DNA of 49,045 nucleotides from Laspinema palackyanum D2a (lineage in GTDB: Bacteria > Cyanobacteriota > Cyanobacteriia > Cyanobacteriales > Laspinemataceae), in contig JAMXFF010000008.1 in assembly GCA_025370845.1 (NCBI GenBank), forward strand, positions 124,913 through 173,957, read 5' to 3'. The notes below the pieces were generated by a model, which ran no database searches, was not told the DNA's origin, and saw nothing but the letters and a program-made list of their open reading frames with translations. Below, one piece after another: positions 7,953 through 37,832 of this stretch (position 1 is its first letter; each line of letters begins with the position of its first letter). Position numbers and translations under genes: made by a program.

Positions 7953-8056
7953 GGGCAAGGGATTGTAGCGATCAATACCAGAGGAGGGATCAGTAGCCGC
8001 TAGGGAGTTGATCCCGATACTATGAAAAGGAAAACCTCTGATCTTAGCAATTCGAC

Positions 8057-8926: not shown

Positions 8927-8948
8927 TGAGGCAGCCTCCCAATTCAAC

Positions 8949-9233: not shown

Positions 9234-9303
9234 ATCATTCCCCTATTTACCGTTGTATGACGACGAGGTGCTATTAAGTCTTGGTTCGAGCAGCCTGGTT
9301 AAT

Positions 9304-10476: not shown

Positions 10477-10558
10477 CCCAATGTGGTGTTGAGTCTCTTT
10501 CCCGGTTGGGGAAGCTCAAGGGTGGGAATCAGCGTGAGGGTAATGGGTGGAACTGACT

Positions 10559-11074: not shown

Positions 11075-11848
11075 ACTGCCCGCACTAAACCACTTGAGTT
11101 AATGATTCCCGATCCCACGTCCAAACTCCCCTAACTGGATTAACTGGGTGACCATTTTATGTTTTGAATTCTTGATTGGCAAAATTTTACCAGGGTCACT
11201 GCCTCGCCTCACATTCTAGTCCCCGGATTAGGGGGGTAGGTCAGCCGATCGCCTGAAGTTTCCCTCTGCCCTAGGGCATAACTACCCAAGGCGATCGAGT
11301 TTAACCCGGTGAATCCTGCCGAGGGATATGGGGATTATAACATTTCGCGATCGGGTTCTCATGGGATGGGGCAGACGGGGGAGAAAGTTCAACGTCACGA
11401 CTTCAGTCGTTATCTTCAGTTCAACGTCACGACTTCAGTCGTTATTTTCAGTTCGTAGTAACGACTTCAGTCGTTATCTTCAGTTCAACGTCACGACTTC
11501 AGTCGTACTCTTCAGTTCAACGTCACGACTTCAGTCGTTATCTTCAGTTCAACGTCACGACTTCAGTCGTTACCGCGTTACTTGGCTGAAGCCAAGTAAC
11601 GCCCCCTTCCAGGTCAAGCATCCAGTCATTACGCAGGCGCTTCAACCGCCAATCGTGCGTGTCACGGCTGAAGCCGTGACACGAGAGCAACGACTGAAGT
11701 CGTTACTACAAACATGGATCCATCCTTCTCCTGGGCCAAACGACTGAAGTCGGGACGTTGAACTTTCCCCCATCTCCCCCATCCTCCAAATAAACAAGCT
11801 ATCCAGTATCAAAATTGAACTGGATAGCCTATTTAGAGCGTGAAACAC
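11075..11848. other. Non-coding gap carrying a palindrome array
   Basis: The first 300 bases show no gene and contain the likely promoter region of mrnC. The remainder (11383-11767) is a palindromic repeat array, listed separately. ORFs predicted through the array (11328-11747 and 11642-11848) merely translate the repeats. The last bases before 11849 lie just 3' of the STAS gene on the minus strand. Confidence 0.7.
11383..11767. repeat. Palindromic repeat array with terminal inverted repeats
   Basis: At least seven copies of CACGACTTCAGTCG-type palindromes at about 30-base spacing. The block starts with GAAAGTTCAACGTC (11383-11396) and ends with the exact inverse GACGTTGAACTTTC (11754-11767), so it is bounded by 14-bp terminal inverted repeats. 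Two units have fully different arms but the same CTGAAG centre: GCGTTACTTGGCT-GA-AGCC... at 11575-11602 and CGTGTCACGGCT-GA-AGCC... at 11658-11683. These arms are perfectly complementary, 13 and 12 bp. The block sits just 3' of the STAS gene. Confidence 0.88.
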
Positions 11849-12217
11849 TCAAGTGGATTTGATTTTCTCTAGGGCAGCGTCCACCGATGGCTGCAAAGAG
11901 AGAAACTGCTCTAATCGAACCAGTTTGACCGTTTGGGTCACCCGGGGATTGCTGACAATTTGCAAGGTACCTTCAGCAGTTTGAGCTTTTTTTACCAGTT
12001 GCACCAGCGCACCTAAACCAGAACTGTCAACAAAATCTATTTTGGATAAATCCAAAATAATGTTCGTGGGACCCTCGTCAATACACTGACTGATCGCCTT
12101 CCGAAAGGTCGCTTCCGAAAAGGCATCGAGTAAGCCAGTGAGACGGAAGAGTTGGTAATCGTTCCCGACTTCGCGCGTGCCTCTTAGGCTAACGGTCAGG
12201 GTTAATGGCTCAGGAAT
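11849..12217 (-). CDS. STAS-domain anti-sigma-factor antagonist-like protein with apparent ATT start
   Basis: A single STAS domain of about 122 residues, the SpoIIAA/RsbV-type fold that binds a partner kinase or anti-sigma factor and is switched by serine phosphorylation. The phosphoacceptor region is VDSSGLGAL (about residues 63-71, Ser65/Ser66). The reading frame is open to a TAG at 12227-12229, yet contains no ATG, GTG or TTG until a TTG at 12055, in the middle of the domain. Conserved sequence begins much earlier (LTVSLRGTRE, YQLFRLTGLLDAFS). An excellent Shine-Dalgarno (AGGAGGG, 12228-12222) lies four bases before ATT at 12217. I therefore place the start there; the start codon is inferred. 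Confidence 0.75.
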   Translation of the reverse strand: MPEPLTLTVSLRGTREVGNDYQLFRLTGLLDAFSEATFRKAISQCIDEGPTNIILDLSKIDFVDSSGLGALVQLVKKAQTAEGTLQIVSNPRVTQTVKLVRLEQFLSLQPSVDAALEKIKST

Positions 12218-12706
12218 AACGCCCTCCTAGCTGCATACTGATACATTTACGCGACATTTGTCCGGCTATTGCTGGACAATGCAGCGATGGCACTATCACC
12301 CTTGAAGGTGACAGCGGCGGTATCCCGCAAAGCTTTTAGAAAGATTCCAAAAGCGCAAGATGGTTTAAGGTCGATGAGGATGATTAGACTCGTACTCTCT
12401 TAGACTCAAGAATCCACTTGACCTCGGCAACCAAGCAAGGAAGTCTCAAAGGTAGGGCTCAAAAGTCTAAGGGAAGGCGCGAGTGGCTGCTCCATGTTCA
12501 GATCTTGTCGGATATTATACCCGATTATCCGCAGATGCCCAGCAAATCTCCGATTAAATCCTTACTCCTCAAATCGACGATCCATTTTAAAGGCTTTCTT
12601 GCCGTTTGTCAATGAGCAGCACCATTAGATTTTTAGATTGTAATCGGTCCGATTGCCGATTGACAAGGAATTTTGCCAATTACCCGGTTTTAAGTTCCGC
12701 CTCCTG
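12218..12706. promoter_or_regulatory. Intergenic region upstream of the STAS gene, with a 9-bp hairpin
   Basis: This 489-base spacer is downstream of carA and upstream of the STAS gene, both on the minus strand. The clearest element is a hairpin at 12258-12279: TTGTCCGGC-TATT-GCTGGACAA, nine pairs with one G-T. It lies 41 bases upstream of the proposed ATT start and could sit in the 5' leader. No protein-like frame was found, and no T-rich intrinsic terminator for carA was evident. Confidence 0.4.
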
Positions 12707-13867
12707 CTAACTGGCAGTTTTCGCGGCAGTCCGAGATTCCCGCATGGAATCGACAAACCGTTTGAAGATATAGTCCGCGTCATGGGGACCCGGACTCGCT
12801 TCGGGGTGGTATTGGACGGAAAACACTGGCAGAGACTTGTGACGCAAACCGGCAATGGTGCGATCGTTCAAGTTCAGATGGGTAATTTCCACCTCGCTGC
12901 TTAAAGAATCGTCACTTAAGGCAAAGCTGTGATTTTGGCTGGTAATTTCGACTTGACCCGTTAACCCTGCTGGTTGATTTAACCCGCGATGCCCAAATTT
13001 AAGCTTAAAGGTATCTGAACCCAGGGAGAGTCCCAAAATCTGATGTCCTAAGCAAATCCCAAACATGGGTTTTTCAGAACTCAGCAATTGTTTGGTGGTT
13101 TCGACTCCTTGGAGCACTGCCGCTGGGTCTCCGGGTCCATTGGAGAGAAAAATCCCATCGGGATTGTGCTTGAGGATTTCCTCGGCGGAAGTGGTGGCGG
13201 GAACGACTATGACCCGACATCCGTAACTCGCTAGACGGCGCAGGATATTACGCTTAATCCCAAAATCTAGGGCAACGACGGTGAATGTTTCCCCGTTCAT
13301 GCCTTGAGCTTGGGGACTGAATTCCCAATGGGGGTCCGTGGTTTCAGTCCACTCGTACACCGTTGAGGTGGAGACTTCCGGGACGAGGTTTAAGCCCTTC
13401 ATGGAGGGGGCCGCTTGCACTTGGGCTAATAATTCGGCGGGGTCGAGGATTTCGGTGGAAATTCCACCATTCATGGCCCCAACCATGCGAATTTTGCGGG
13501 TGAGTGCGCGGGTATCGATGCCGTAAATCCCAGGAATATTGTTTTGGGTCAGGTAGTCGGGGAGGGACTGGGTTGAGCGCCAGTTGCTGGGGCGTTTGCA
13601 GATATTCCGAGCGATCGCCCCTCGGACTTGGGGACGTTGGGATTCTTCGTCGTCGGGATTCACCCCGGTATTGCCTAATTCGGGATAGGTGAACGTCACG
13701 ATCTGGCCGCAGTAGCTGGGATCTGTCAATACCTCTTGATAGCCTGTCATGCCGGTATTGAAGACCACTTCACCAATGGTCGTGCCAGTGGCTCCAAAGG
13801 ACCAACCTCGATAGGACGTTCCATCTGCTAGTACGAGCAAGGCAGGGCGATCGGCAGAAAGAGACAT
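12707..13867 (-). CDS. carA: Carbamoyl-phosphate synthase small (glutaminase) subunit
   Basis: Hydrolyses glutamine to feed ammonia to CarB for carbamoyl phosphate, used in arginine and pyrimidine synthesis. With the start at ATG 13867, preceded by GTGAGGTTTCT, the protein is 386 residues, the normal length. The frame is open to 14068, but the extra 67 residues look non-conserved. The N-terminal CPSase domain covers about 1-150 ([46 protein letters not shown]). The class I glutaminase domain follows, with Cys272 (MFGICLGHQ) and His354/Glu356 (QYHPEASPG). carB is not in the window, so the two genes are unlinked here. Confidence 0.95.
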
Positions 13868-14295
13868 AGAAACCTCACTAGCTTCAGGGGTCATGTTTCG
13901 GCAGTCACGGGTAAGGGGTCCATTAGTCTGAATGAGGGACCCAGCCGTTTGACTTCCGCAAGATCCTATTATTCCATGAGTTGCTTTCTTGGCGCGTCTC
14001 TGTTGGCCGTAATGTAAAGAAGCGATCGCAACTCCCTCGCCTGGATCCCGTGAGTCCCCTTTCCTCACCTAAGTTCCCTTTCCCGGTGAATTTCCCCTCG
14101 GCGTCAGGGTCTGTGAATGTCTGGCTGCCTGGGTTTTGCTTTCCTCAATCAACCGGGCATAATAGACATAACCCCACTTGACTCATCTGCACCGGAGGTT
14201 GGGCAATGCCCAACGCTACCCTGAATTCCGAGCCGCTGGATTTAGCCCTTGCCCCCTTTCCATTCCTGCTCTAACTGCCAAGAGGAAAAAGTTTC
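13868..14295. promoter_or_regulatory. Divergent promoter region between carA and the retropepsin-like gene
   Basis: A 428-base spacer between divergent genes. It must hold both promoters, but no convincing -35/-10 pair was identified. It contains the small palindrome GTTGGGCAATGCCCAAC (about 14198-14214), whose GGGCAATGCCC core is shared with the 27-bp inverted repeat at 14993-15056. No further gene is supported. Confidence 0.4.
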
Positions 14296-25685: not shown

Positions 25686-26206
25686 CGTTGTGTTCATTCA
25701 ATGCCATATCCATTGTTCCCCTATCTCTCCAGACCAGCGGGTGAGATGAGGAATTTTTTCTTAAGTAAAATGTACCCAGGGAAAGGGATTGGCTTAGGGC
25801 CGTGGGTTCTGGGTAAACTCCCGAACCGTTTAAACGCTTGCTAATCCGAACCATAGAGACCCTCTTGTTGCTCGTTCCTTTTCATTTATGCTTATTCACA
25901 ATAACAGAAGTGAAACCGGTTAGGAGACTGGGTTCTGGGCCAGTTTATGAACTGTCTGAAGCGGCGATCGCCTTTTGGTGCTTGATCGGCTTTAATAAAT
26001 TTATAGACAAATTACTGAGTCAAATTCTCCATATTTTAAGGACATTGAGGGCCAATAATACCTCACTGAACCGCTTAAATTTTATAGAAGGTTGATAAAC
26101 CCGACACTTTCCAATAGCCAGGGGGTTGCCTCATTAAATCTCTTCGGTATAATTAATATCAAAGCTCAACCCCCGTTTAAAATTTCATTCAAAGAAAGGA
26201 AATTCA
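25686..26206. promoter_or_regulatory. Intergenic region upstream of the oxygenase cluster
   Basis: About 520 bases. An 85-codon frame at 25838-26095 lacks a ribosome-binding site and any conserved motif, so I do not call it a gene. The last 90 bases contain the cluster promoter listed separately. No repeats of the CTGAAG family are present. Confidence 0.45.
26126..26153 (+). promoter_or_regulatory. Sigma70-type promoter of the oxygenase cluster
   Basis: A perfect -10 hexamer TATAAT (26148-26153) lies 16 bases after TTGCCT (26126-26131), a 4-of-6 match to the -35 consensus. Transcription would start near 26160, about 47 bases before the first Rieske gene, which has an AAAGGAAA Shine-Dalgarno. 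The motifs are seen; promoter activity is inferred. Confidence 0.55.
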
Positions 26207-27268
26207 ATGCTGCAATTTGAGTCTCAACCCCTTTCCGATTTAGCCCAAAGTCTGCGGACGGTTCGCCAAGCCAAAACGTTTAATAATCCTGAACGATTTA
26301 TCGAAGGGTGGTATTGGGCCATCCGGTCTAAAGACCTGAAAATGGGTCAAGTCAAACCCATCACCCTACAAGGTCGAAACCTGGCAATTTATCGAGGAAC
26401 CGATGGCAAAGTGGTCGCCTTAGATGCTTATTGTCCCCACATGGGTGCTCACCTCGCTGAAGGCAAAGTTGACGGGAATAAATTGGGCTGTTTTTTCCAC
26501 AATTGGAAATATGATAATCGCGGCCACTGTGTGGAAAGTCCCGGCTTAAATAGAACGATTCCCGCCAAAGTTCGGTCTTGGCCGACTTCGGAAACTTATG
26601 GCTTAGTCTGGGTTTGGACCGGCGAGACGCCGCGCCATCCGGTGCCTTTTGTTCCGGAACTGGCAGGAAAAGACTGTGATGCTGGCTTTGGGTTAGGGTT
26701 CCACAAAAACTGTCATCCGAATGTAGTGATGATTAATGCGATCGATGCCCATCATTTTAATACGGTTCATAACCTACCCGTTGAGGTGAAATTCGAGAAA
26801 GAAACTCTCAACGACAACGCCATTATTTTTAGTAACATTACCCGGGGGGGAGACCAATCTTGGTTTATCAATCTGATTCGTCCCCTGTATCAAAATGAAA
26901 TTACCTACAAAATGTGTTATTGGTATGGAAGCACCGGAACTGTGACCGTGGGGCCAGACTTTTTGCACTTTCACATTATGTTTAGTATCCGCCTCAAAGC
27001 CGATGGAAAGGCCGAAGGTCAAACGATCGCCATTACCGAGAAACGTCCCGGTTTGTGGGGATGGCTATTTAATCGAATTGTCTTGTGGATCACCTTGCGG
27101 GTGGGGAATTACTTTGCTAAAGGGGATACCACCTTATTTGAAACGATTAAATTTGATTTAAAAACCCCGACTCTAGCGGATCAATCGATTATTGAGTTTA
27201 TCGAACAAGTAGAAACACAAAAACCGCTCAAATGGGAAACCTGGGAGACAGTTGAGCATCTGTCATAA
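26207..27268 (+). CDS. Rieske non-haem iron oxygenase, KshA/Neverland-like (1)
   Basis: A 353-residue oxygenase. The Rieske [2Fe-2S] ligands are Cys76-x-His78 (AYCPHMGAHL) and Cys95-x2-His98 (CFFHNW). The mononuclear iron site is NAID180-x2-His183-x4-His188 (AIDAHHFNTVH), with Asp307 a candidate third ligand. The opening GWYWAIRSKDLKMGQVKPI and VVALDAYCPHMGAHLAEG resemble the KshA/Neverland group, which acts on sterol or other bulky hydrophobic substrates; the true substrate is unknown. A hydrophobic stretch at 283-298 (LWGWLFNRIVLWITL) suggests membrane association. First gene of a nine-gene plus-strand cluster; it would need an external electron donor such as the ferredoxin at 30809. Confidence 0.88.
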   Translation: MLQFESQPLSDLAQSLRTVRQAKTFNNPERFIEGWYWAIRSKDLKMGQVKPITLQGRNLAIYRGTDGKVVALDAYCPHMGAHLAEGKVDGNKLGCFFHNWKYDNRGHCVESPGLNRTIPAKVRSWPTSETYGLVWVWTGETPRHPVPFVPELAGKDCDAGFGLGFHKNCHPNVVMINAIDAHHFNTVHNLPVEVKFEKETLNDNAIIFSNITRGGDQSWFINLIRPLYQNEITYKMCYWYGSTGTVTVGPDFLHFHIMFSIRLKADGKAEGQTIAITEKRPGLWGWLFNRIVLWITLRVGNYFAKGDTTLFETIKFDLKTPTLADQSIIEFIEQVETQKPLKWETWETVEHLS

Positions 27269-27336
27269 TCCCGACGACTCCGAGAAAAACCCAGGCTAGA
27301 CTACGCCATAATGGAATGGTTGCCACGGAGTCACCG

Positions 27337-28263
27337 ATGAGTCAATCTTTATTTACTACGGCGCAGTTTGACTTACCTCATGTTACAGAAGGCGATAAAT
27401 TGAATCGCCTTCTTTCTGCTGCTTTAAAAAGCAGCATCGGCAATTCGTTGTCAATCCCAGAGGTAGTCACCCCGGCCTATTGGAATTCATCTTACTTTGG
27501 CCTGGATCCGGTGAAAATTTTTCAGGATTCCACTGGGGAAGAACAGCAGCAAATTTTACATTTATGTAGCAATGCACTTCTGGAAGAAGCCTACTTTGTA
27601 GAAAAAGCAGGAGTGGGATACATGGCGAAAATGGTCATGCTGGCAGAAACCACCGAAGAACGGATGCTGTATGGATTATTTGCAGCAGATGAAGCCACCC
27701 ATTTAGCGCAAATTCGGCCATTTTTAGGCGATCGCAACCCAGTAGCAACGGGCGATCGCTTTTTAGAATTACTGGCTGAAATTGTGGAGATGGAGGATAA
27801 AAGCGTCTTAATCTTTGTGATTCAAGTGGTGTTAGAAGGATGGGGACTCAGCCACTATCGCCACCTGGCTAACGACTGTTGCGATCGCGAATTAACCCAA
27901 ATGTTTAGAGGATTTCTTGATGCCGAAGCGCGCCATCACAGTACCGGCGTCACCTTGTGCGATCGCCACGCCATCACCCCGCAATCCCAGAGTGCGATCG
28001 TGGAAATCCTCACCTCATTTTTGCAGATGGTCCAAGTCGGACCCCAACGAGTCCTTCAGGCGATCGCGCAAGTCAAAGGAGATTTATCCCGTCCCCAACA
28101 AATCCAAATCTTCCAAGAATTAGACACCGAAACCCACAGCGCCACACGCCTCCAACTCCTGCGATCGCTCCTCCGCTCCGACCCCACCCATTCTATCATC
28201 AATCACCTAGAAGAAAAAGGCTCATTCACCCCCTACCCCCCAGAAAAATGCGTCCTTCAATAA
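27337..28263 (+). CDS. Ferritin-like di-iron carboxylate protein (1)
   Basis: A 308-residue protein from ATG 27337, which has GGAG 7-8 bases upstream (an in-frame ATG at 27316 adds seven residues). Numbering from 27316, the helix-bundle ligands read Glu91 or Glu96 (LLEEAYFVEKAG), Glu126-x2-His129 (AADEATHL), Glu174 (VVLEGWGLSHY) and Glu204-x2-His207 (LDAEARHHSTG). This is the E...ExxH...E...ExxH pattern of ferritin-like oxygenases and oxidases. It may hydroxylate, desaturate or N-oxygenate a substrate. Within the cluster it follows the first Rieske gene by 68 bases and precedes a spacer with three palindromic repeats. Confidence 0.78.
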   Translation: MSQSLFTTAQFDLPHVTEGDKLNRLLSAALKSSIGNSLSIPEVVTPAYWNSSYFGLDPVKIFQDSTGEEQQQILHLCSNALLEEAYFVEKAGVGYMAKMVMLAETTEERMLYGLFAADEATHLAQIRPFLGDRNPVATGDRFLELLAEIVEMEDKSVLIFVIQVVLEGWGLSHYRHLANDCCDRELTQMFRGFLDAEARHHSTGVTLCDRHAITPQSQSAIVEILTSFLQMVQVGPQRVLQAIAQVKGDLSRPQQIQIFQELDTETHSATRLQLLRSLLRSDPTHSIINHLEEKGSFTPYPPEKCVLQ

Positions 28264-28274
28264 AACCCATCCCC

Positions 28275-28376
28275 CGTTCGTAGTAACGACTTCAGTCGTT
28301 CTCTTATCTTAGTTCGTAGTAACGACTTCAGTCGTTCTCTTATCTTAGTTCGTAGTAACGACTTCAGTCGTTATCC
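28275..28376. repeat. Three palindromic repeats inside the oxygenase cluster
   Basis: Three tandem copies of GTTCGTAGTAACGACTTCAG followed by TCGTTCTC and ttatct-type spacers, at about 36-base spacing. They begin 12 bases after the stop of the first di-iron gene and end 24 bases before the next start. If the cluster is one transcript, three hairpins (AGTAACGACT/AGTCGTTA-type) would form in the mRNA between two genes. Confidence 0.88.
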
Positions 28377-28399
28377 CCCATCCTCCATTCATCCAAATT

Positions 28400-29629
28400 A
28401 TGAACAACATTTTCAACGAACCCAAACCCAACACACTCCTAGAACACGAAAAAATCTACCGAAAACTCCAACTCAACTACCACCGCAATCAACAACAAGA
28501 CCAAACCGCATCAATCGACCAATCTGCCAGCAAATTCTCCTATACCCATTGCCAACAAGAATACTGGAACCCCGAAGAATTTTCCCTCCTCTACGGAACC
28601 CCCCTCTGGGACCAATCCACCCCCAGTCAACGCCTAATCCTAAATCACCTCTATTGGGTCGCTTACTACTCCCAAATCATCTCCGCAGAAATTGCTACAA
28701 TCCTGTTTAATCAAACCAGCGCCGCTGGACTTTATGCTCAGGAAGACTTTCGCTTAGTCTGCGATATGCTTGACCTAGAATCCGCCCAAGAACGGGCACA
28801 TATTAACGCATTTAAAACCATATCAGAACAAGTAGAAGCCGCATTATTTGGCAAACGTATCTTCACCTACCCCATGCGCGGACCCTACACCGAAACAATG
28901 GTACACGCCGATACCAATGCTATAAAAACCTGGTGGAAACAACTACAACTCCGCTACTTTGGAATGCTCTCTTCCGGGAATACCTTTCTAGCTTGTCAGT
29001 ATTTTACCGTGCGGGGAGTGCGAACTTTAAACGGAAAATTGGTCCAACATAAGTTAAGCCAATATTACCAAAATCATCAAGATAAAGAAAATGCTCCAAT
29101 CCCGGCTAAAATCTCTTATTATCATTTTTTAGATGAGAGCTTTCATTTTAACAGTTCCACCCTGTTATCCCATGAAGTAGTAACCTGTTTGAAAAAGCCC
29201 ACCCCATTCGAGACATTTGTCGCCAACCTGGGATTACGCGGATGCCAGAAAGACCACGCTAATTTTTCCGTAGCAATTAATGGCATCTTTTGGTATGACC
29301 CGGCCCTCTATTCGGCCATTTATGAACTGTTGCGATCGCCCATCTTTTCCATGAGTGACCCCGATGCCAAACAGATGATGCAAGATTGCTTTACCCAGGA
29401 AAGTGAAGGACTCCATCGCAGTTATCAAACCCATCAAGAGGCGAGGGCATCCTATCAAGTCTATCTCGAAAAAGTAGACTATGCCTGGAAAAGTAACCGT
29501 GAAATGTCTATTATGGCAGCAACTTCGATTCCTCGCTATCTAGCCACCCAGAAAAAAGCCCTCTCTCGGCGTTTTACTGCTCCTTTTATCCATTCTCAGC
29601 ATCCTTTATTGCAAGTTGCTTTAGATTAA
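28400..29629 (+). CDS. Probable di-iron oxygenase, AurF-like (2)
   Basis: A 409-residue, Gln/Asn-rich protein without signal peptide. Candidate di-iron ligands are Glu97 (SAEIATILFN), Glu131-x2-His134 (SAQERAHINAF), Glu246-x2-His249 (FLDESFHFNSS) and His258-Glu259. The spacing is longer than in ferritins and recalls AurF-type N-oxygenases or other helical di-iron oxygenases, but the match is by motif only. The remaining sequence, with TFLACQYFTVRGVRTL, is not recognised. It lies 136 bases after the first di-iron gene (with three hairpin repeats between) and 31 bases before the second Rieske gene. Having two di-iron proteins side by side suggests successive oxidations. Confidence 0.6.
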   Translation: MNNIFNEPKPNTLLEHEKIYRKLQLNYHRNQQQDQTASIDQSASKFSYTHCQQEYWNPEEFSLLYGTPLWDQSTPSQRLILNHLYWVAYYSQIISAEIATILFNQTSAAGLYAQEDFRLVCDMLDLESAQERAHINAFKTISEQVEAALFGKRIFTYPMRGPYTETMVHADTNAIKTWWKQLQLRYFGMLSSGNTFLACQYFTVRGVRTLNGKLVQHKLSQYYQNHQDKENAPIPAKISYYHFLDESFHFNSSTLLSHEVVTCLKKPTPFETFVANLGLRGCQKDHANFSVAINGIFWYDPALYSAIYELLRSPIFSMSDPDAKQMMQDCFTQESEGLHRSYQTHQEARASYQVYLEKVDYAWKSNREMSIMAATSIPRYLATQKKALSRRFTAPFIHSQHPLLQVALD

Positions 29630-29660
29630 CCTTTATCCATCTCATCCCCCTTAAAATCCC

Positions 29661-30710
29661 ATGAATTCCCGGCAGAATCAAAACACCCAACCTCGAACCG
29701 AGATGCAAATCTTTAATAACTGGGATGTGGTTGCCAAAGGATGGTACATTGCTTGTCCCAGTGAAGAACTGCCTCGAAATAAACCTAAATCCTTGGAAGT
29801 CTGCGGACAGCAAATTGTTCTATTTCGTGGTGAAGATGGCAAAGTCCGCGCCTTAGATGCCTATTGTCCCCATCTTGGAACGGACTTAGGAATTGGGCGA
29901 GTGGATGGGAATTTAATCCGCTGCTATTTTCATCATTGGGCGTTTGATGGAGAGGGAAACTGTCAGGATATTCCCTGTCAATCTAGCATTCCCGAAAAAG
30001 CCCGCTTACAATCTTATGCCACCGATGAAAAATATGGCATGATTTGGGTTTATCCCGATACAAAGGCCCCGGAAGGGGTAGCAGAATTCGATGAACTTAA
30101 GGGGAAAACAGTAATTGCCGTTCGCGATCGCCCCTTTGAACGCACCTGCCATCATCACATTTGCATGATGAATGGGATTGATGCTCAACATCTGCAAACG
30201 GTGCATCAAGTTAATATTAATATGAATCTGACTTTACAGGAAAATAAATCCGGTAGTCTGATGGATTTTACCCTCAGTGGGGAATTTCCAAATACCACCC
30301 CGCGAGAACGACTAGCGCGGAAATTTTTAGGGGAAAATTATGCCTATAGCATGAGATATCAAAATGCTTGTTTGGGGCTGTTAACCACAATGAAAAATGT
30401 TAAATTGCTTCCTCCCTTGCACATGATTTATGCTTATCTTCCCATTGAACCGGGGAAGATTAAGGTGCAAAATATTTATGTAGCCGCCCGTCGTCCGGGA
30501 ATTTTTGGGTGGTTTGTTACCTACTTTTTATTGTTTTGTACGAAGATGCTTTATTTATTTTTGAAGGGGGAAGATGGGAAGATTTATGACAATATTCGGT
30601 ACAATCCCAATGCTTTGCTGAGTATTGATCGCCCGTTGGTGGAGTATATGAAATATGTCGAGCGATTAACGCCTTCGGTTTGGTCAAAAGTTCGGGTTGA
30701 GAGGGAATAA
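29661..30710 (+). CDS. Rieske non-haem iron oxygenase, KshA/Neverland-like (2)
   Basis: A 349-residue paralogue of the oxygenase at 26207. The Rieske ligands are Cys69-x-His71 (AYCPHLGTDL) and Cys88-x2-His91 (CYFHHW). The iron site is NGID174-x2-His177-x4-His182 (GIDAQHLQTVH), with the third acidic ligand in the GEDGKIYD stretch (303-310). A hydrophobic segment at 281-300 (IFGWFVTYFLLFCTKMLYLF) predicts membrane association, as in its paralogue. The second iron-site residue is Gln (AQH) instead of His (AHH). Start MNSRQNQNTQ; conserved sequence begins near residue 17. The ferredoxin gene follows 98 bases downstream. Confidence 0.88.
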   Translation: MNSRQNQNTQPRTEMQIFNNWDVVAKGWYIACPSEELPRNKPKSLEVCGQQIVLFRGEDGKVRALDAYCPHLGTDLGIGRVDGNLIRCYFHHWAFDGEGNCQDIPCQSSIPEKARLQSYATDEKYGMIWVYPDTKAPEGVAEFDELKGKTVIAVRDRPFERTCHHHICMMNGIDAQHLQTVHQVNINMNLTLQENKSGSLMDFTLSGEFPNTTPRERLARKFLGENYAYSMRYQNACLGLLTTMKNVKLLPPLHMIYAYLPIEPGKIKVQNIYVAARRPGIFGWFVTYFLLFCTKMLYLFLKGEDGKIYDNIRYNPNALLSIDRPLVEYMKYVERLTPSVWSKVRVERE

Positions 30711-30732
30711 AAGGTTGTTTGGGGTGGGATTA

Positions 30733-30783
30733 GCAGGAGGCAGAGCCTCCAATTGAGCATTCCCAGGCAGAGCCTGGTAACGA
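30733..30783. repeat. AGGCAGAGCCT hairpin pair upstream of the ferredoxin gene
   Basis: Two adjacent palindromes, GGAGGCAGAGCCTCC and CCAGGCAGAGCCTGG, separated by AATTGAGCATTC, occupy the spacer between the second Rieske gene and the ferredoxin gene. Both centre on the same GGCAGAGCC core with different outer arms. The last hairpin ends about 30 bases before the ferredoxin start, whose Shine-Dalgarno is AAAGGAGG. Confidence 0.75.
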
Positions 30784-30808
30784 GGAATAAATTAAAGGAG
30801 GGGTTTTT

Positions 30809-31096
30809 ATGAAGCGTTGTTTGGTGAGATTTCCAGGGACAAATTATCCAGCGATCGCCTTACCTCAGCATGACAATTTGGCTAATTATTTGACCGTGCA
30901 GAATTCAACGATTTTGTTTGGATGTCGGACGGGAATTTGTGGGACTTGTTTGTGTGTAATTGAGGGAGATATTCCCCCGCCTAATTTGGAGGAAAGAGAG
31001 GTTTTAGAAATTTTAGCACCGGGAAATCCGCAAGCACGGTTAGCTTGTCAGGTGGATGTGACGAATGATATTGCGATCGCCCCTTTTGAGGAATAA
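30809..31096 (+). CDS. Plant-type [2Fe-2S] ferredoxin
   Basis: A 95-residue electron carrier. Cys39-x4-Cys44-x2-Cys47 (GCRTGICGTCLC) and Cys80 (ARLACQ) form the cluster site, with PNLEEREVLE between; the spacing is the standard plant-type one. The N-terminus is shorter than in photosynthetic PetF and the sequence is less acidic, fitting a dedicated donor rather than the photosystem I carrier. It sits five bases ahead of the third Rieske oxygenase and is probably translationally coupled to it, so it is the obvious electron source for the oxygenases here. No ferredoxin reductase gene is in the cluster; the cell's FNR could serve. Confidence 0.92.
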   Translation: MKRCLVRFPGTNYPAIALPQHDNLANYLTVQNSTILFGCRTGICGTCLCVIEGDIPPPNLEEREVLEILAPGNPQARLACQVDVTNDIAIAPFEE

Positions 31097-31101
31097 CTAA
31101 A

Positions 31102-32124
31102 ATGAGATTTGAAGACTTTTGGTATGTGGTGGCGCTTAGTGAGCAACTGAAACCCAAAACAGTGCTTTCGCGGACGATTTTGGGAGAATGGTTAGCTATT
31201 TTTCGGGATGAACAGGGGGACGTGGTGGCATTACGCGATCGCTGTATGCACCGCAATAGTCGCCTCTCTCGTGGCAAAGTCTGCGATGGGATGCTGCATT
31301 GTCCCTATCATGGATGGGTTTATGATAAATCAGGTCAAGTCGTAGCGGTTCCTGCTGAAGGAGAACAGTTTAAAACCCTTGCCTCCCGTCGGACTCATTC
31401 TTATTCAACTCAAGAAAAAGACGGCTATATTTATGTCCGATTAGCAGAGAATCCTAGTCTGAATATCGACCCTTTTCCCATGCCTTATTACGGCGAACCG
31501 GGATGGGAAACCGTTCGCGTGATTAACCGTTTTCGTAACAATGTCACCAATTGTGCAGAAAACTTTATTGATATTCCCCATACTGCCTCAGTGCATCCTG
31601 GGATATTTCGCAAACCCCAGCAAAAACAGTTAGCAATGACTGTGGAACGTCGGGATGGGTCGGTATTTGTTACCTATCGGAATGAAACCACCAATTTGGG
31701 ATGGTATTCCCGGTTTTTAAATCCCCAAGGTGGGGAAATTTACCATAGTGACCGTTTTTCTATGCCAAATGTAACCACTGTGGAATATAAGTTTGGAGAA
31801 AACCGCCGGTTTTTTATTACCAGTCAATCAATTCCCGAGGCAGAAGATTCAACCTTAGTTTATACCGATCTGACCTTTGATTATGGTATTTGGAACAAAA
31901 TTGCTCGTCCTTTTGTGCGCTGGACTGCCCAATATATTATTAAGCAAGATATAGAAATTTTGAGGGTTCAGCAAGAGTTGATTAATAAATATGGCACTCA
32001 ATTTGCCAATACTCCAGCGGATACCATTCATGTCTTTGTCGAATCCATTCGCAAAGCCATTTCAGCCGGGGAAGACCCGAGATTGCTTCCCCCAAAATCT
32101 GTAACGGTTAACTTTTGGGTTTAG
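31102..32124 (+). CDS. Rieske non-haem iron oxygenase (3), VanA/CAO/SxtT-like
   Basis: A 340-residue oxygenase of a different branch from the other two. The Rieske ligands are Cys48-x-His50 (RCMHRNSRLS) and Cys67-x2-His70 (HCPYHGWVYD). The iron site is Asp157-x2-His160-x4-His165 (ENFIDIPHTASVH), with Asp283 (IIKQDIEILRVQQ) the expected third ligand. This is the classical C-M-H...CPYHGW type found in VanA, chlorophyllide a oxygenase-like and SxtT/SxtH-like oxygenases. No hydrophobic tail comparable with the other two is seen. It starts five bases after the ferredoxin stop. The substrate cannot be read from sequence. Confidence 0.88.
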   Translation: MRFEDFWYVVALSEQLKPKTVLSRTILGEWLAIFRDEQGDVVALRDRCMHRNSRLSRGKVCDGMLHCPYHGWVYDKSGQVVAVPAEGEQFKTLASRRTHSYSTQEKDGYIYVRLAENPSLNIDPFPMPYYGEPGWETVRVINRFRNNVTNCAENFIDIPHTASVHPGIFRKPQQKQLAMTVERRDGSVFVTYRNETTNLGWYSRFLNPQGGEIYHSDRFSMPNVTTVEYKFGENRRFFITSQSIPEAEDSTLVYTDLTFDYGIWNKIARPFVRWTAQYIIKQDIEILRVQQELINKYGTQFANTPADTIHVFVESIRKAISAGEDPRLLPPKSVTVNFWV

Positions 32125-32150
32125 GGTTTATCCACAGTATCAGGACATAT

Positions 32151-32876
32151 ATGGCTATTTTTATCGCATTTGTGACCCTGTTAATTTTGACGGTTGCGCG
32201 AACGGAACACTGGGCAAAATTTCAGACAAAATCTTGGCAAGAGTGGCTGTTAGATGGAATTGGCTTATGTTTTCAAGGGATTTTAATTCCGGCGTTGCAA
32301 CTGGTCCTAATTTATCAAGTCTATCAGCATTTTATCCCGGACAGTCGCGCAATTTTTACTTCACCTCCCATCCTCGCATTTGGCCTAAGCTTTGTCGGGG
32401 TAGATTACCTGTATTATTGGAATCATCGCTTGCTCCATAGTCGGGTGTTCTGGGGCTTGCACCTGGTTCATCATACTATGACTGAACGGCAAGTAATCGG
32501 AACTTCTCGCAATACGTTATGGACCAGTTTTTTAATTGTTTATCTCTGGATTCATGCCCTATTTATCTATTTGCTCCAAGACCCGACTGCCTATATTATT
32601 GGGGTAAGTTTGACATCGATTTTAGATTTATGGCGGCATAGTGAAATCGAACCCCTACCCGGAACGATGTTGCATCGCTTGCTCTCCCCTTGGTTGATTT
32701 TACCGATGGATCATGCATGGCATCATGCTCAGGATTCTGCTGGGGTTAATTATGGGGCAAATTTAAAAGTCTGGGACCGATTGCATGGCACAAATTATGA
32801 CAGTAATATCGCCCCAAATGCTTTGGGAATCTCCACCCATTTAACTTTAGCTCAAAAGTTAATTTGGCCGTTTTAA
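32151..32876 (+). CDS. Fatty acid hydroxylase/sterol desaturase superfamily membrane oxygenase
   Basis: A 241-residue integral membrane protein with the superfamily's histidine boxes: His92-x3-His96 (WNHRLLH), His104-x2-His107-His108 (HLVHHT) and His188-x2-His191-His192 (DHAWHHA), with His163 (WRHSEI) as an extra ligand candidate. Membrane segments lie at about 1-17, 34-58, 72-90, 122-142 and 145-160. These di-iron enzymes hydroxylate or desaturate lipids, sterols or carotenoids. The frame opens at TTG 32115, but ATG 32151 (MAIFIAFVTLLILT) is the likelier start. It lies 26 bases after the third Rieske gene. A related sterol-desaturase-like protein (SxtD) occurs in saxitoxin clusters. Confidence 0.87.
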   Translation: MAIFIAFVTLLILTVARTEHWAKFQTKSWQEWLLDGIGLCFQGILIPALQLVLIYQVYQHFIPDSRAIFTSPPILAFGLSFVGVDYLYYWNHRLLHSRVFWGLHLVHHTMTERQVIGTSRNTLWTSFLIVYLWIHALFIYLLQDPTAYIIGVSLTSILDLWRHSEIEPLPGTMLHRLLSPWLILPMDHAWHHAQDSAGVNYGANLKVWDRLHGTNYDSNIAPNALGISTHLTLAQKLIWPF

Positions 32877-32917
32877 CCTGCGGTTTTAGTCGCCTTTAAT
32901 TAATAAAATCAACTCTA

Positions 32918-33547
32918 ATGACCTTACTCAGTCTAATTCTTTCCTTCTTTCCGGCGATCGTCATGGGAATGACGGCAGCATCTTTTCTGTGGATTTGTTT
33001 TTCTCCAGGCATTTTAGGTGTTTTCGCTTTACTTTTTTCTCTGTATGGATTTCCGGTAATGGTTTATCGGATTCACGATTATTTTTATCCCATAAAAGAA
33101 GGAATTTCTTACCTGAAAGGACCCGATTATTCTCCTTGGTGGGGAGGTCATCAAATTCAGGCGATTTATATTACCTTTCCGGCGATTGAATCCGTGTTAA
33201 GGCTGATTCCCGGGGCTTTTTCCCTGTGGTTGAGATTGTGGGGGGCAAAAATTGGCCGAGGGATATATTGGATGCCAATTTTAGAACTGGCCGATCGCGC
33301 ATTATTAGAAGTCGGCGATCGCACCATTGTCGGTCATCGCGTCGGGATTTACAGTCATGTGATTAAACCCAAACATAACAACTTAATGCTGTATGTAAAA
33401 TCCGTCAAAATTGGCAATGATGTGTTTGTCGGGTCCGGGACACATTTCGGTCCGGGAGTCACCATCGCCGATGGTGCTTATCTTCCCATTGCCACCCATC
33501 TTTATCCCAATACTAAAGTCACTCCCCGCCATCATTCCCATAATTAA
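32918..33547 (+). CDS. Membrane protein with left-handed beta-helix (hexapeptide) acyltransferase-like domain
   Basis: A 209-residue protein. Residues 1-50 form two hydrophobic helices (MTLLSLILSFFPAIVMGMT; LGVFALLFSLYGFPVMV). The C-terminal 90 residues show hexapeptide rhythm ([LIV]-G-x-x-x-x): LEVGDRTIVGHRVGIYSH, VKIGNDVFVGSGTHFGPG, VTIADGAYLPIATHLYP. This matches the transferase-type beta-helix used by acyltransferases and by the terminal domain of some NRPS-associated membrane proteins, but the catalytic histidine is not certain. The protein is too short for a complete NRPS-terminal protein, so it may be a split-off domain. It lies 41 bases after the hydroxylase gene. Confidence 0.72.
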   Translation: MTLLSLILSFFPAIVMGMTAASFLWICFSPGILGVFALLFSLYGFPVMVYRIHDYFYPIKEGISYLKGPDYSPWWGGHQIQAIYITFPAIESVLRLIPGAFSLWLRLWGAKIGRGIYWMPILELADRALLEVGDRTIVGHRVGIYSHVIKPKHNNLMLYVKSVKIGNDVFVGSGTHFGPGVTIADGAYLPIATHLYPNTKVTPRHHSHN

Positions 33548-33715
33548 ATTTATATAAAATGCGGATTTTAGGGAATTAATCTGTACAAATAATTAGCGGA
33601 GGATGATGGGGGGTTCTGTTGAAACCATTTCCTTAACTCAGGCCAAATGCCATCGTGCATTTGGCGTTCTCACTTCTTTCGGCTTATTGATTCAGCCCAT
33701 TGTAATCGGACAAAC

Positions 33716-35362
33716 ATGATGCTTTCTCTTATCAAACTCTTTTGTTTTTTGCTGGGGGTATATGCCCATAAATTTTCACAAGCTTTACAAATTCCTCGGA
33801 GGTCTCAGCGGGCCGTTCAACAACAAATTTATCGGAATTTTCTATGCAGTGACTATGGCAAATCTCTGGATTTAACTTCCGATCCCAAAGCTTCCTTAAA
33901 TCAGCAATGGAATCAGATTCCCATTGTAGACTATGAGGACATTAAAGACTGGATGGAACCCGCTCATCCCGCATCAAACTTGGAAACGGAGGACTCTGAT
34001 AACCAGACTTCCTTGCCGGGAAAGTCTCTGACGCCTGAACCAATTTTATTTTATGAAAAAACCTCGGGAAGTCGGGGACCAGCTAAATGGATTCCCTATA
34101 CTCAATCCTTACGTTCTAGTTTTAACTCCATGTTTTGTGTGTGGGTGCATGACCTGATTCGGAATGGACCTAAATTTGAGACGGGGAAATTTTATTTTTG
34201 TATTTCCCCCCAGCTAAAAGACCCCCAAGCTATCACGGAAATATCTGGGGGTTTGGCGGATGATTCTGAATATTTAGATGGGTGGTTGCGGGCCTTGCTC
34301 AGTTTGGTATTAGTCTCACCGCCTCGATTGAAACACCTACAAGACCCTGATGAATTCAAAGAACAGTTAAGTTTGGAACTGTTATGCGAACATCGCTTAG
34401 AAGCGATTTCCATTTGGAGTCCCAGCTTTCTAAAAGTGCTGTTGGATTATATGGAAACCCATCGGGAGTCGCTGATTGAGAAGTTAGGGCATAAAATCTC
34501 TCGCCAACGGGCGCAACAGTTAATGTTATCGCCGATTCCCTGGACTGAAATTTGGCCGAAACTGAAACTGATTTCCTGTTGGGATAGTAGTCACTCCCGA
34601 GAACAGGCGGAATTTCTGCGAAAACTGTTTCCCGGGGTGATGGTCCAGGGGAAAGGATTGCTGGCAACGGAAGCGCCGATGACGATTCCCTTGATTGCCG
34701 CCCAGGGATTTGTTCCCCTGATTAATGAAGTGTTTTTTGAATTTGAGGATGATAGGAGACAGATTTATAAACTCCATGAGATTAAACAGGGGGAAGAATA
34801 TACTCTGATTATTTCTCAGAAAGGGGGGTTGTATCGCTATCGGATTGGCGATCGCATTCGAGTCAGCCATTTTTATCACAAAACCCCCTGTTTAGAATTC
34901 CTAGGACGCGATCGCAGCATCAGCGATTTAGTCGGGGAAAAACTCTCCGAGCCCTTTGTCCAAACCGTCCTCCAAGACTTATCCTTAGAAACCACCTTTT
35001 TCAAAACCCTCGTCCCGGTGACCCAACCCGTTGCCCATTATCTATTGTTACTGGATGAAGCCCAGGAGCCACCGGAGGCGATCGCCCACCGCTTAGATCG
35101 TGAACTCATGCGATCGCCCCATTATCGCCATGCCCGCTTATTAGGACAACTCGCCCCTCCCCGCGTCTTTATCTCCAAAAAAATCCCCCACGCCTTAATC
35201 CGATATCAGACCCAATCCGGCAAAAAATGGGGAGATCTCAAACCTGAAATTCTGGCAACGGCACCCCTTGAAAACCAACTCTTGCAGGAATTAGAAACCC
35301 TCGCCAATTCCCGTTTGATTCCCGAGGTCCCCTCCGACTCCCAACTTTGTTGCTCCTTTTAG
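33716..35362 (+). CDS. GH3-family acyl-adenylating amide ligase
   Basis: A 548-residue enzyme of the GH3 (auxin-responsive promoter) family, which activates a carboxylic acid as acyl-AMP and joins it to an amino acid or other amine. The ATP motif TSGSRGPAKWIPYT is at 116-129. LLATEAP (315-321), YRYRIGD (373-379) and FLGRDRSISDLVGEKL follow in family order. In plants GH3 enzymes conjugate jasmonate, auxin and salicylate; substrates in cyanobacteria are unknown. ATG 33716 (MMLSLIKLFCFLLG) is preferred to the frame opening at 33647. The N-terminal 17 residues are hydrophobic, suggesting a membrane anchor. Last gene of the oxygenase cluster, 168 bases after its neighbour. Confidence 0.87.
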   Translation: MMLSLIKLFCFLLGVYAHKFSQALQIPRRSQRAVQQQIYRNFLCSDYGKSLDLTSDPKASLNQQWNQIPIVDYEDIKDWMEPAHPASNLETEDSDNQTSLPGKSLTPEPILFYEKTSGSRGPAKWIPYTQSLRSSFNSMFCVWVHDLIRNGPKFETGKFYFCISPQLKDPQAITEISGGLADDSEYLDGWLRALLSLVLVSPPRLKHLQDPDEFKEQLSLELLCEHRLEAISIWSPSFLKVLLDYMETHRESLIEKLGHKISRQRAQQLMLSPIPWTEIWPKLKLISCWDSSHSREQAEFLRKLFPGVMVQGKGLLATEAPMTIPLIAAQGFVPLINEVFFEFEDDRRQIYKLHEIKQGEEYTLIISQKGGLYRYRIGDRIRVSHFYHKTPCLEFLGRDRSISDLVGEKLSEPFVQTVLQDLSLETTFFKTLVPVTQPVAHYLLLLDEAQEPPEAIAHRLDRELMRSPHYRHARLLGQLAPPRVFISKKIPHALIRYQTQSGKKWGDLKPEILATAPLENQLLQELETLANSRLIPEVPSDSQLCCSF

Positions 35363-35465: not shown

Positions 35466-37832
35466 ATGACAACCAACTCTGAATTTATCAATCAGGTTGT
35501 AGCGCTAGTCAATCAACGACGCGCCCTCGCCAATTTGCCGCCCGTGGCCCTTGATTCTCAATTGAATCGAGCCGCCCAAATCCATGCCGAAGATATGGCG
35601 GATAACGACTTTTTCAGTCTCACCGGCTCAGATGGCTCCACAACAGTCAGCCGGTTGGCCGCAGTGGGATACCGCTTTAGTAACTTCCAGGAGAATATCG
35701 CGGCGGCCCTTCCCACCCCAGAGCAAGTCGTCGAAAATTGGTTCAACGATCCCGGACAGCGAGACACCCTCCTCAAACCCGGAGTTGATAATATCGGCGT
35801 TGGTTATTTCTTCCTAGAAAACGATACCGGCAACTTTAACGCGAACCATTACTGGAGTTTAGTCGTTGCCGCCCGTGCCGCAGGTAGTAATATTGTGGGA
35901 TTCAATTTCCCTAACGCCCTCCAAGGCAGCGTCGGTGACGATACCATCTTTGGATCCGTAGCCAACGACACCATTTTTGGTAATGCCGGGAACGACCAAA
36001 TCTTTGGTCGCGTTGGGGAGGATATCCTCTTTGGGAACGCCGGTAACGATCAACTCTTTGGGGAAGAAGGGAACGATACCCTCTTCGGGGGTCAAGGGGA
36101 GGACTTCCTTGATGCTGGACCCGGAAACGATTTTCTCTCGGGAGATGAGGGCAACGATACCCTCACCAGTGAGTCCGGTTTCAATATTTTTGAAGGGGGT
36201 AGCGGCAACGATCTCCTCGGTGGCGGCATCAACAATGACACCATTTCTGGTGGCGACGGAGATGATCTCGTCTATGCTGGAGCCGGTGAAGATAATGTGA
36301 TCGGGGAAGCGGGTAACGACATCATCTTTGGCAATGTCGGGAATGACATCCTCAATGGCGGTAGCGCTAACGATACCCTCTACGGCGGCCAAGATGACGA
36401 TACCCTCTACGGCGAAAGTGGGGACGACCTCATGTACGGCGACAAGGGGAACGACCAACTCTTTGGTGGGGATGGCAACGACCAACTCTTTGGTGGTGAA
36501 GGCAACGATACCGTCTTCGGCAACGACGGGAATGATGCCATCTTTGGTAATCAAGGAGATGATACCCTCGCCGGGGGTGATGGTGCGGATACCATCTATG
36601 GGGGACAAGATAACGATCAACTCTTTGGGGATGATGACAACGATCTGCTCTTTGGGGACCTCGGTAACGATACCGTGATTGGGGGTGCAGGCAACGATAG
36701 CATCTATGGCGGTGAAGGCAACGATCAACTTAGTGGTCAAGAAGGGGATGACAACCTCTTTGGCAACCAGGGCCGCGATACCCTGCGAGGCGGTGTAGGG
36801 AACGATACCCTCTTTGGCGGCAAAGGGGAGGACCTGTTATTTGGGGAAGCCGATGAAGATTTCCTCTCCGGGGATTTAGGAAACGATACCCTGTTTGGTG
36901 GGACCGGAAATGATACCCTCCTCGGCGAAGCTGGGGAGGATTTATTATTTGGCGAAGGAGGCAACGATACCTTAATTGGCAACGAGGGCAGTGATACCCT
37001 CTTAGGCGATGAGGGCAATGACTTCCTAGAAGGCGGTGCCGACAACGATAGTTTACTCGGCGGCATTGGCAACGACACCATTTTGGGAAATGAAGGAGAA
37101 GATCTCCTCTATGGCGGCGATGGCAATGACCAAATGCGCGGGGGTCAGGAAAACGACCTCTTATTCGGAGAAGCAGGCAACGATACCCTCGTTGGCGATG
37201 AAGGCAACGATACGCTAATTGCTGGGGATGGGGAGAATTTACTGGATGGTGGTGCCGACAACGACAGTCTCATTGGGGGTGTCGGTAACGATACCATCAA
37301 CGGCGGGGACGGTGCTGATACCATTGTTGCCACGGGAGGCAGCAACGTGATCAACGGCGATGCCGGAAACGATAGTATTTTAGGCGCTGCGGGTAGCGAT
37401 ACCATCAACGGTGGTGCTGGTGAGGATCTCGTTAACGGTGGCGATGGGGATGATGTCCTCACGGGAGATGCCGGGAACGATTTCCTCATCGGCGGCAATG
37501 GCAATGACACCATACTGGGTGGTGAAGGCAGCGACACTCTCGATGGGGGTGCTGGGGAAGTTGTCGTTTATACGGGAGGCGCAGGCAGGGACTTCTTCGT
37601 ATTGCGTCCCGGAGTCACTGCCACCATTACGGATTTTGAGGATGGACAGGATAAGTTTATTCTCACTGGCGGTCTAAAAGTCAGTGATTTACTCATTTCT
37701 GCACCCATTGGAGAGTCACCCAGCGACACGACTATTGTCCTAGCGAAGGATACCTCGGTGGTGATTGCTCTCCTCGAAGGCATCGATCCCGAGATCCGCA
37801 ACCTGATTATTACAACGGGCGATTTTGTCTAA
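35466..37832 (+). CDS. CAP (SCP/allergen) domain protein with RTX calcium-binding repeats
   Basis: A 788-residue protein. Residues 5-140 are a CAP domain (INQVVALVNQRRALANLPPV; His37 in IHAEDMADNDFF; QENIAAALPTPEQVVENWFN; NHYWSLVVAARA). Residues 155-700 are glycine- and aspartate-rich RTX nonapeptides (GGxGNDxLF; tens of copies) that bind calcium. The end (FEDGQDKFILTGG... to LIITTGDFV) resembles the usual C-terminal type I secretion region, and there is no N-terminal signal peptide. So it is likely exported by a type I ABC system encoded elsewhere and folds outside in calcium. The start at 35466 follows AAGGAG; a tiny frame ATG AGA TGA at 35461 overlaps it. Confidence 0.92.
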   Translation: MTTNSEFINQVVALVNQRRALANLPPVALDSQLNRAAQIHAEDMADNDFFSLTGSDGSTTVSRLAAVGYRFSNFQENIAAALPTPEQVVENWFNDPGQRDTLLKPGVDNIGVGYFFLENDTGNFNANHYWSLVVAARAAGSNIVGFNFPNALQGSVGDDTIFGSVANDTIFGNAGNDQIFGRVGEDILFGNAGNDQLFGEEGNDTLFGGQGEDFLDAGPGNDFLSGDEGNDTLTSESGFNIFEGGSGNDLLGGGINNDTISGGDGDDLVYAGAGEDNVIGEAGNDIIFGNVGNDILNGGSANDTLYGGQDDDTLYGESGDDLMYGDKGNDQLFGGDGNDQLFGGEGNDTVFGNDGNDAIFGNQGDDTLAGGDGADTIYGGQDNDQLFGDDDNDLLFGDLGNDTVIGGAGNDSIYGGEGNDQLSGQEGDDNLFGNQGRDTLRGGVGNDTLFGGKGEDLLFGEADEDFLSGDLGNDTLFGGTGNDTLLGEAGEDLLFGEGGNDTLIGNEGSDTLLGDEGNDFLEGGADNDSLLGGIGNDTILGNEGEDLLYGGDGNDQMRGGQENDLLFGEAGNDTLVGDEGNDTLIAGDGENLLDGGADNDSLIGGVGNDTINGGDGADTIVATGGSNVINGDAGNDSILGAAGSDTINGGAGEDLVNGGDGDDVLTGDAGNDFLIGGNGNDTILGGEGSDTLDGGAGEVVVYTGGAGRDFFVLRPGVTATITDFEDGQDKFILTGGLKVSDLLISAPIGESPSDTTIVLAKDTSVVIALLEGIDPEIRNLIITTGDFV

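Follow-up and report, generated by a model that had tools for sequence, protein, structure and literature searches.

The 49,045-nucleotide stretch analysed here, positions 124,913 to 173,957 of contig JAMXFF010000008.1 of Laspinema palackyanum D2a (hereafter the window), sits in a 7.4-Mb cyanobacterial genome and carries, at 26207-35362, nine same-strand genes whose closest named relatives are found in Oscillatoria and Laspinema strains. Under short names coined in this analysis, their order is R1, F1, A2, R2, Fd, R3, FAH, HEX and GH3 (open reading frames (ORFs) and Pfam); X7 denotes a tenth gene, usual in relatives, that was not visible from the window alone. A first-pass annotation had described the nine as an oxygenase cluster ending in a GH3 amide ligase, and both the genes and the families assigned to them held, as did the lack of a polyketide synthase, nonribosomal peptide synthetase or terpene cyclase among the nine (Pfam). 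It had also counted two ferritin-like di-iron proteins; F1 is one, and the second, the 409-residue A2, is a CylC homologue that had been overlooked, so halogenation has to be considered besides oxygenation. A2 proteins at 59% identity or more are termed Rieske-type. The features are as follows.

26126-26153, + strand: candidate promoter TTGCCT-16-TATAAT ahead of R1, 10/12 consensus matches
26207-27268, + strand: R1, Rieske oxygenase, 353 amino acids (aa); Pfam PF00355, 1.9e-23; CxH..CxxH and N/D/H/H/D iron-site residues intact
27316-28263, + strand: F1, ferritin-like di-iron protein, 315 aa; MiaE/Ferritin_2 below threshold; ligands 20/20; model aligns with di-iron proteins
28400-29629, + strand: A2, CylC homologue of the Rieske-type clade, 409 aa; AurF 4.6e-6, under the cut-off; placed by alignment and tree with CylC-type proteins
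28778-28801, + strand: A2 motif ExxQExxH (E127-H134), kept in 34/34 Rieske-type, 24/24 CylC-type and 4/4 intermediate proteins
29045-29047, + strand: A2 Q216, Gln where CylC-type proteins have Glu; taken as the NocO E252 / AurF E196 position
29123-29146, + strand: A2 motif HxxDExxH (H242-H249), 34/34 Rieske-type
29661-30710, + strand: R2, Rieske oxygenase, 349 aa; PF00355, 2.5e-26; all listed ligands 19/19
30809-31096, + strand: Fd, [2Fe-2S] ferredoxin, 95 aa; PF00111, 2.1e-8
31102-32124, + strand: R3, Rieske oxygenase with VanA-type C-terminal domain, 340 aa; PF00355, PF19112; all listed ligands 27/27
32115-32876, + strand: FAH, histidine-box protein of the FA_hydroxylase/sterol-desaturase superfamily, 253 aa (241 aa from the ATG at 32151); PF04116, 2.9e-23
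32918-33547, + strand: HEX, hexapeptide acyltransferase-like protein, 209 aa; PF00132, 3.4e-8
33647-35362, + strand: GH3, acyl-AMP/amide ligase, 571 aa (548 aa from the ATG at 33716); PF03321, PF23571, PF23572
34058-34087, + strand: GH3 nucleotide motif I, KTSGSRGPAK, residues 138-147; T139, G141 and K147 in 42/42, S140 in 41/42
34826-34852, + strand: GH3 nucleotide motif III, GLYRYRIGD, residues 394-402; Y396, R397, Y398, G401 and D402 each in 40-42/42

The metal ligands of the cluster enzymes were invariant or nearly so. R1 homologues kept the Rieske ligands in 18/19 and the iron-site residues in 19/19 sequences; R1 at locus L058 (genome G223, 6393-7367) has lost all four Rieske ligands and retains the mononuclear-iron residues. 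C39, C44, C47 and C80 of Fd were shared by 95% or more of 23 sequences, and H104, H108, H116, H119, H120, H200, H203 and H204 of FAH by 95% or more of 30. F1 fitted a helical di-iron fold with ExxH pairs; several di-iron families tied as its nearest fold, and hence no function was taken from it. The GH3 domain scored 78.0 bits against a cut-off of 23.6, its nucleotide motifs being those defined in PMC12493201, with K138 of motif I kept in 32/42 sequences. The candidate promoter that the first-pass annotation placed at the head of the cluster is present as a sequence, and its -10 box aligned between the window and four close relatives; by itself, however, the site is not above chance, with 13 promoter-like sites found against 17.4 expected.

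To follow the genes beyond the window, A2 and GH3 were each searched for in 388 genomes of the class. Rieske-type A2 occurred in 28/388 (any A2 match in 54/388, the remainder being CylC-type or intermediate), and GH3 orthologues, counted at E below 1e-60 with more distant matches left aside, occurred in 29/388 (any GH3 match at 1e-10 in 72/388). All 28 genomes with A2, spanning 14 families, also encoded an orthologous GH3, and G368, the sole genome with a GH3 orthologue and no Rieske-type A2, is 70% complete. The corresponding p value of ~8e-42 assumes independent genomes, which these are not, and overstates the case. F1, HEX, R3, FAH, R2 and X7 were followed through 65 genomes, namely the 28 with A2, G368 and 36 comparison genomes picked for absence of Rieske-type A2 and orthologous GH3, several of which have CylC-type A2 or distant GH3. 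F1 and HEX were present in 28/28 cluster genomes, R3 and FAH in 27/28, and R2 in 24/28 at 59% identity or more. Among the 36, the only clear orthologue was an F1 (G252, 50%); otherwise HEX had one 31% match (G180), R3 one 26% match (G283), FAH none, and R2 25-34% Rieske matches in 13. Missing genes fell mostly, though not exclusively, in fragmented or incomplete genomes, R2 being absent from G323 (2 contigs, 99%).

Gene order, which the first-pass annotation had proposed to compare across cyanobacterial genomes, was kept in distant families. The detected genes lay in one place in 16/28 genomes and in two to seven places in 12/28, partly from assembly fragmentation. Genuine separation along one contig was seen in four: G334 has two groups 2.9 Mb apart, G218 has cluster genes at 5 places, GH3 of G018 lies 22 kb from the other cluster genes, and G006 has two groups 43 kb apart with R2 on another contig. 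Scattering among relatives had been named as grounds for rejecting a joint pathway; the genes are indeed split in some genomes, yet they are retained there, and retention despite scattering argues for function. The families encoded, the order in which they are kept, their preserved catalytic residues and their joint inheritance are all shown. The nine-gene set is a conserved pathway and not a chance neighbourhood, and the proposal of one co-inherited oxidative pathway stands, every genome with A2 having GH3 as well.

No gene family besides X7 recurred around the cluster in distant relatives, the next being present in 6 loci, all from close relatives, and megablast with 26207-31100 found no plasmid copies. 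HEX and GH3 were also seen on a 3.7-kb contig labelled Planctomycetota (L045), which may be misbinned. In the f40 genomes G054, G025 and G040, SDR and UDP-glycosyltransferase genes lie within the cluster and thioesterase, phosphopantetheinyl transferase and NAD kinase genes upstream (domains read in one member each), and these additions suggest a glycosylated variant.

A2 is, judged by sequence, a CylC homologue. It was ~30% identical to CylC-type proteins in alignment and, like the dimetal-carboxylate halogenases CylC and NocO, carries ExxQExxH, HxxDExxH and AurF-like di-iron ligands (PMC12101540, PMC12871659), so that both published motifs are shared. A plain AurF assignment was rejected, since that match fell under the cut-off and A2 agrees better with the CylC signature. 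A search of plasmids with A2 returned four remote relatives at 26-30%. Fatty-acyl-AMP ligases, carrier proteins and polyketide synthases accompany two of them, a sulfotransferase and a P450 lie next to a third, and the record of the fourth is unannotated. Such neighbourhoods are familiar settings of CylC-type enzymes. Unlike CylC and NocO, A2 has no fatty-acyl-AMP ligase, acyl carrier protein or polyketide synthase partners, is ~60 residues shorter and belongs to a separate clade: in a tree of 62 A2-like proteins, which takes in those of G218 and G259 and none of the sequences of PMC8406957 themselves, the 34 Rieske-type proteins formed a single, well-separated group with 100/100 support. The 24 CylC-type proteins used for comparison, a subset of the CylC-type matches, were the 4 from plasmids and 20 from stretches of 19 genomes, a few of them near-identical.

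Two differences set the Rieske-type clade apart. At position 216, matched to NocO E252 from an alignment without NocO itself and from a distance of 30 residues to the HxxDExxH Asp, Gln was found in 34/34 Rieske-type proteins, and Glu in 24/24 CylC-type and 4/4 intermediate ones. From H134 to F196 there were 62 residues in all 34, vs 106-140 in the 24 CylC-type proteins. The intermediates have the Glu and lack the insertion, and the two differences are therefore separable. NocO E252, the ninth active-site residue, is one of nine reported as conserved across 241 homologues and is essential for chlorination though not needed for iron binding, the E252A variant being inactive (PMC12101540). Rieske-type A2 should therefore not be filed as a halogenase on sequence grounds, but it may work like one.

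A pathway that is otherwise the same, with A2 acting as an oxygenase, hydroxylase or desaturase after loss of the chlorination Glu and of an insertion that possibly served a carrier, is accordingly a strong contender, at a little under even odds. The uniform Gln (34/34, with Glu in 28/28 others), the shortened H134-F196 spacing, the fully supported clade and the inactive E252A protein all point that way; that the CylC-type insertion serves carrier-bound substrates is our guess. Against it, ExxQExxH, whose Gln is said in a preprint to be specific to halogenases (PMC12871659), is kept in 34/34 together with HxxDExxH, E252 is probably no iron ligand, and a Gln is still able to hydrogen-bond; moreover, intermediates with Glu and no insertion decouple the two changes on which the argument draws. 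A second A2-like protein, 33% identical, with the CylC Glu kept and the insertion absent, is encoded at 9484-10692 of L124 (G218) and 8964-10220 of L129 (G259), adjoining ABC-exporter genes (domains read in L124 only) and a UDP-glycosyltransferase-like gene, with a 2453-aa ORF also present in L124.

The cluster is not the first of its kind. Eusebio et al. 2021 (PMC8406957) delineated a 'Rieske-containing' class of CylC-homologue clusters, 36 of 95, with 2-4 Rieske proteins, a sterol-desaturase-family protein in most, an acyltransferase and no carrier protein, chiefly in Nostocales and Oscillatoriales and with no product known. The nine genes match it in their CylC homologue, three PF00355 Rieske proteins, PF04116 sterol-desaturase-family protein, acyltransferase and lack of a carrier protein (Pfam), and belong to this published, product-less class. 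The Rieske/PriA clade in which that paper places such CylC homologues may correspond to the single group of 34 seen here. They differ from the clusters of that paper, most of which are reported to have a desaturase, in having no desaturase of that kind. A PriA variant of the class was seen in that survey only in Synechocystis, with the other functions dispersed (PMC8406957), and G218 matches it, with PriA and a GGDEF/EAL protein beside X7-R1-F1-A2. The first-pass annotation was thus right in outline, but its statement that no described pathway has this gene set does not stand, the class having been described already. In the accessible part of PMC8406957 we met neither GH3 as an invariant partner, nor X7 as a tenth gene, nor the uniform Glu-to-Gln change with ~60-residue shortening of A2; GH3 has 0 occurrences in its main text, and the supplement (Fig. 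S4, Table S4) may show it. Our literature search, with most subscription journals and all supplements outside its scope, found no paper assigning a product to the class.

X7, a ~245-aa protein with a GNAT fold in its predicted structure, lies just before R1 in most relatives and is absent from the cluster of the window; it would be a GNAT-fold acyltransferase usually heading the cluster. It was found in 27/28 cluster genomes at 48% identity or more, the genome of the window having a paralogue only, on another contig. Overall, 30/388 genomes had X7 matches, comprising the 27, G164 (50%) and paralogues in G171 and the genome of the window. Mere relocation in the latter was rejected: the copy on contig C44 (L076, G000 C44:192000-211900, at 8201-8980) is 64% identical to X7' of G171 and only 33-40% to cluster X7 proteins, and looks like a paralogue. 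It lies beside a helix-turn-helix ORF (HTH_32, HTH_23) that may belong to an insertion element.

The surroundings of X7 point to acyl chemistry. In G164 (L150, C1:1398000-1416000, 6654-13970), an X7-F1-HEX trio (49-50% identity) lies by a divergent HlyD/FtsX/FtsX/ATPase exporter, and searches of that genome gave no A2 or GH3 match, which suggests that X7-F1-HEX may be a core module to which the Rieske enzymes, A2, FAH and GH3 were added. A fatty-acid desaturase adjoins X7 in G218 and G259, and in G171 (L066, C5, 4255-7735) a distant GH3 (31%), a fatty-acid desaturase and X7' form a trio that is possibly a related small lipid pathway. We favour an acyl substrate mainly on account of these desaturases, the G171 trio and the GNAT fold of X7. 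A desaturase as constant cluster member was rejected, as BLAST with two desaturase queries, other desaturase kinds not being sought, matched only G218, G259 and G171 among the fetched loci. Separately, a Citrobacter portucalensis plasmid (L081, 11887-23273) is annotated with a GH3-family protein that has several radical SAM proteins, a fatty acid desaturase and an N-acetyltransferase nearby, and this looks like another lipid-type cluster.

Taken together, we consider that the nine genes form the main part of a conserved pathway in which a lipid-derived chain is oxidised and then conjugated by GH3, with a probability of roughly 0.5. The hydrophobic precursor of the first-pass annotation is kept here as a plausible hydrophobic acyl substrate, the GH3 ligase motifs being intact. 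In the scheme that we infer, including its substrate class, the choice between halogen and oxygen, the order of steps, the amine partner and the product, the carbon skeleton would come from primary lipid metabolism, as a fatty-acyl or similar membrane-borne chain made with no dedicated synthase. F1, A2, FAH and the three Rieske oxygenases would use O2 to functionalise this chain at several positions, as the established chemistry of these enzyme families implies, with A2 either chlorinating or hydroxylating an unactivated carbon. Electrons would be supplied by the dedicated Fd and, as no reductase is encoded in the cluster, presumably by photosynthetic ferredoxin/NADP reductase. HEX, and usually also X7, would move acyl groups, and GH3 would finally activate a carboxylate as acyl-AMP and join it to an amine. 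The product is probably a fat-like compound not yet discovered, oxidised and possibly chlorinated.

The amide step is proposed by analogy with plant GH3 enzymes and OlsH. Plant acyl-amido synthetases (JAR1 etc.) are the best solved relatives of the cluster GH3, in the motif III region; the match is remote (E ~2e-10) and does not imply plant hormones. OlsH, the bacterial GH3 that serves as lyso-ornithine lipid synthetase of planctomycetes and N-acylates ornithine, shares the family and the nucleotide motifs and acts on fatty acids (PMC12493201). Unlike OlsH, however, the cluster GH3 reached only 23.3 bits against the cut-off of 620 in the OlsH NCBIfam model, and the nine genes include no OlsI-like alpha/beta-hydrolase family (Pfam); ornithine-lipid synthesis by an OlsH orthologue is ruled out on both counts.

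Several observations weigh against the oxidised-lipid pathway. All 34 Rieske-type A2 proteins have Gln in place of the Glu that NocO requires, and halogenation may therefore not occur. No carrier protein or fatty-acyl-AMP loader is encoded among the nine genes (Pfam), and desaturases like those of G218 or G171 were not found by BLAST in other fetched loci. G164 has X7, F1 and HEX but not the other cluster genes, and G252 has only F1. The partners of GH3 are not readable from its residues, and the published class comes without an assigned substrate or product. Finally, a terpenoid would fit the likeness of FAH and the Rieske proteins to enzymes acting on sterols (KshA, SdmA).

This last point underlies an unlikely alternative, in which Rieske enzymes oxidise methyl groups of an isoprenoid (a triterpenoid or carotenoid) to a carboxylate that GH3 conjugates. 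The best solved chains for R1 are those of KshA, the oxygenase of 3-ketosteroid 9alpha-hydroxylase, all three Rieske proteins have 4beta-methylsterol monooxygenase as best NCBIfam match, and FAH falls in the sterol-desaturase superfamily. Those NCBIfam matches, however, are generic (72-85 bits against a cut-off of 600), and the closest matches of R3 are SxtDIOX/SxtT and dicamba demethylase. Synechoxanthin synthesis (CruE/CruH) is a further possible comparison. Squalene-hopene cyclase (PF13243) was matched in 15/28 cluster genomes (one weakly) and 19/36 comparison genomes; the 13/28 without a match include the genome of the window, which rejects a hopanoid as general precursor.

Rieske oxygenases, FAH-type enzymes and ferredoxins also occur in degradation pathways. 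An operon that catabolises or detoxifies an external hydrophobic compound is nevertheless highly improbable here, as no reductase, ring-cleavage, beta-oxidation or transporter family is found among the nine (Pfam), the invariant partner is a ligase that spends ATP, and proteins homologous to A2 are found in biosynthetic clusters. Chance adjacency of unrelated genes, for which the separate location of R2, X7 and GH3 in some genomes might be cited, is ruled out by conserved order and by the co-inheritance of GH3, F1 and HEX with A2 in all 28 genomes of 14 families.

Two other features of the window lie at or next to the cluster. A 16-base inverted repeat, AACGACTTCAGTCGTT then CTCTTATCTT, is present in two copies 36 bases apart between F1 and A2 (28285-28336). 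Directly after the cluster, 35466-37832 encodes a repetitive protein of 788 aa whose many GGxGxDxL/F units look RTX-like on visual inspection; its family was present in five close-relative loci and in no distant locus.

What these data add to the Rieske type, which outnumbered every other class of CylC-homologue cluster surveyed in 2021 (36/95; PMC8406957), is the invariant GH3 partner, the tenth gene, co-inheritance even when scattered and the Glu-to-Gln signature. A gene set that survives scattering is a precise target, and as the PriA-type genomes G218 and G259 hold all eight traced genes and R1, a laboratory-friendly host may exist. The invariant GH3 predicts an amide as the final bond, narrowing a mass-spectrometry search, and the uniform Glu-to-Gln change frames the question of whether a di-iron enzyme of this family still halogenates or has turned oxygenase. 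We tentatively suggest that the Rieske-type CylC clade may be a separate di-iron subclass, with Gln and no insertion, that acts on a free or lipid-bound chain and that, alongside the three Rieske oxygenases and GH3 as obligate ligase, might build undiscovered, highly oxidised and possibly halogenated lipid amides in ~7% of sampled cyanobacterial species (28/388).

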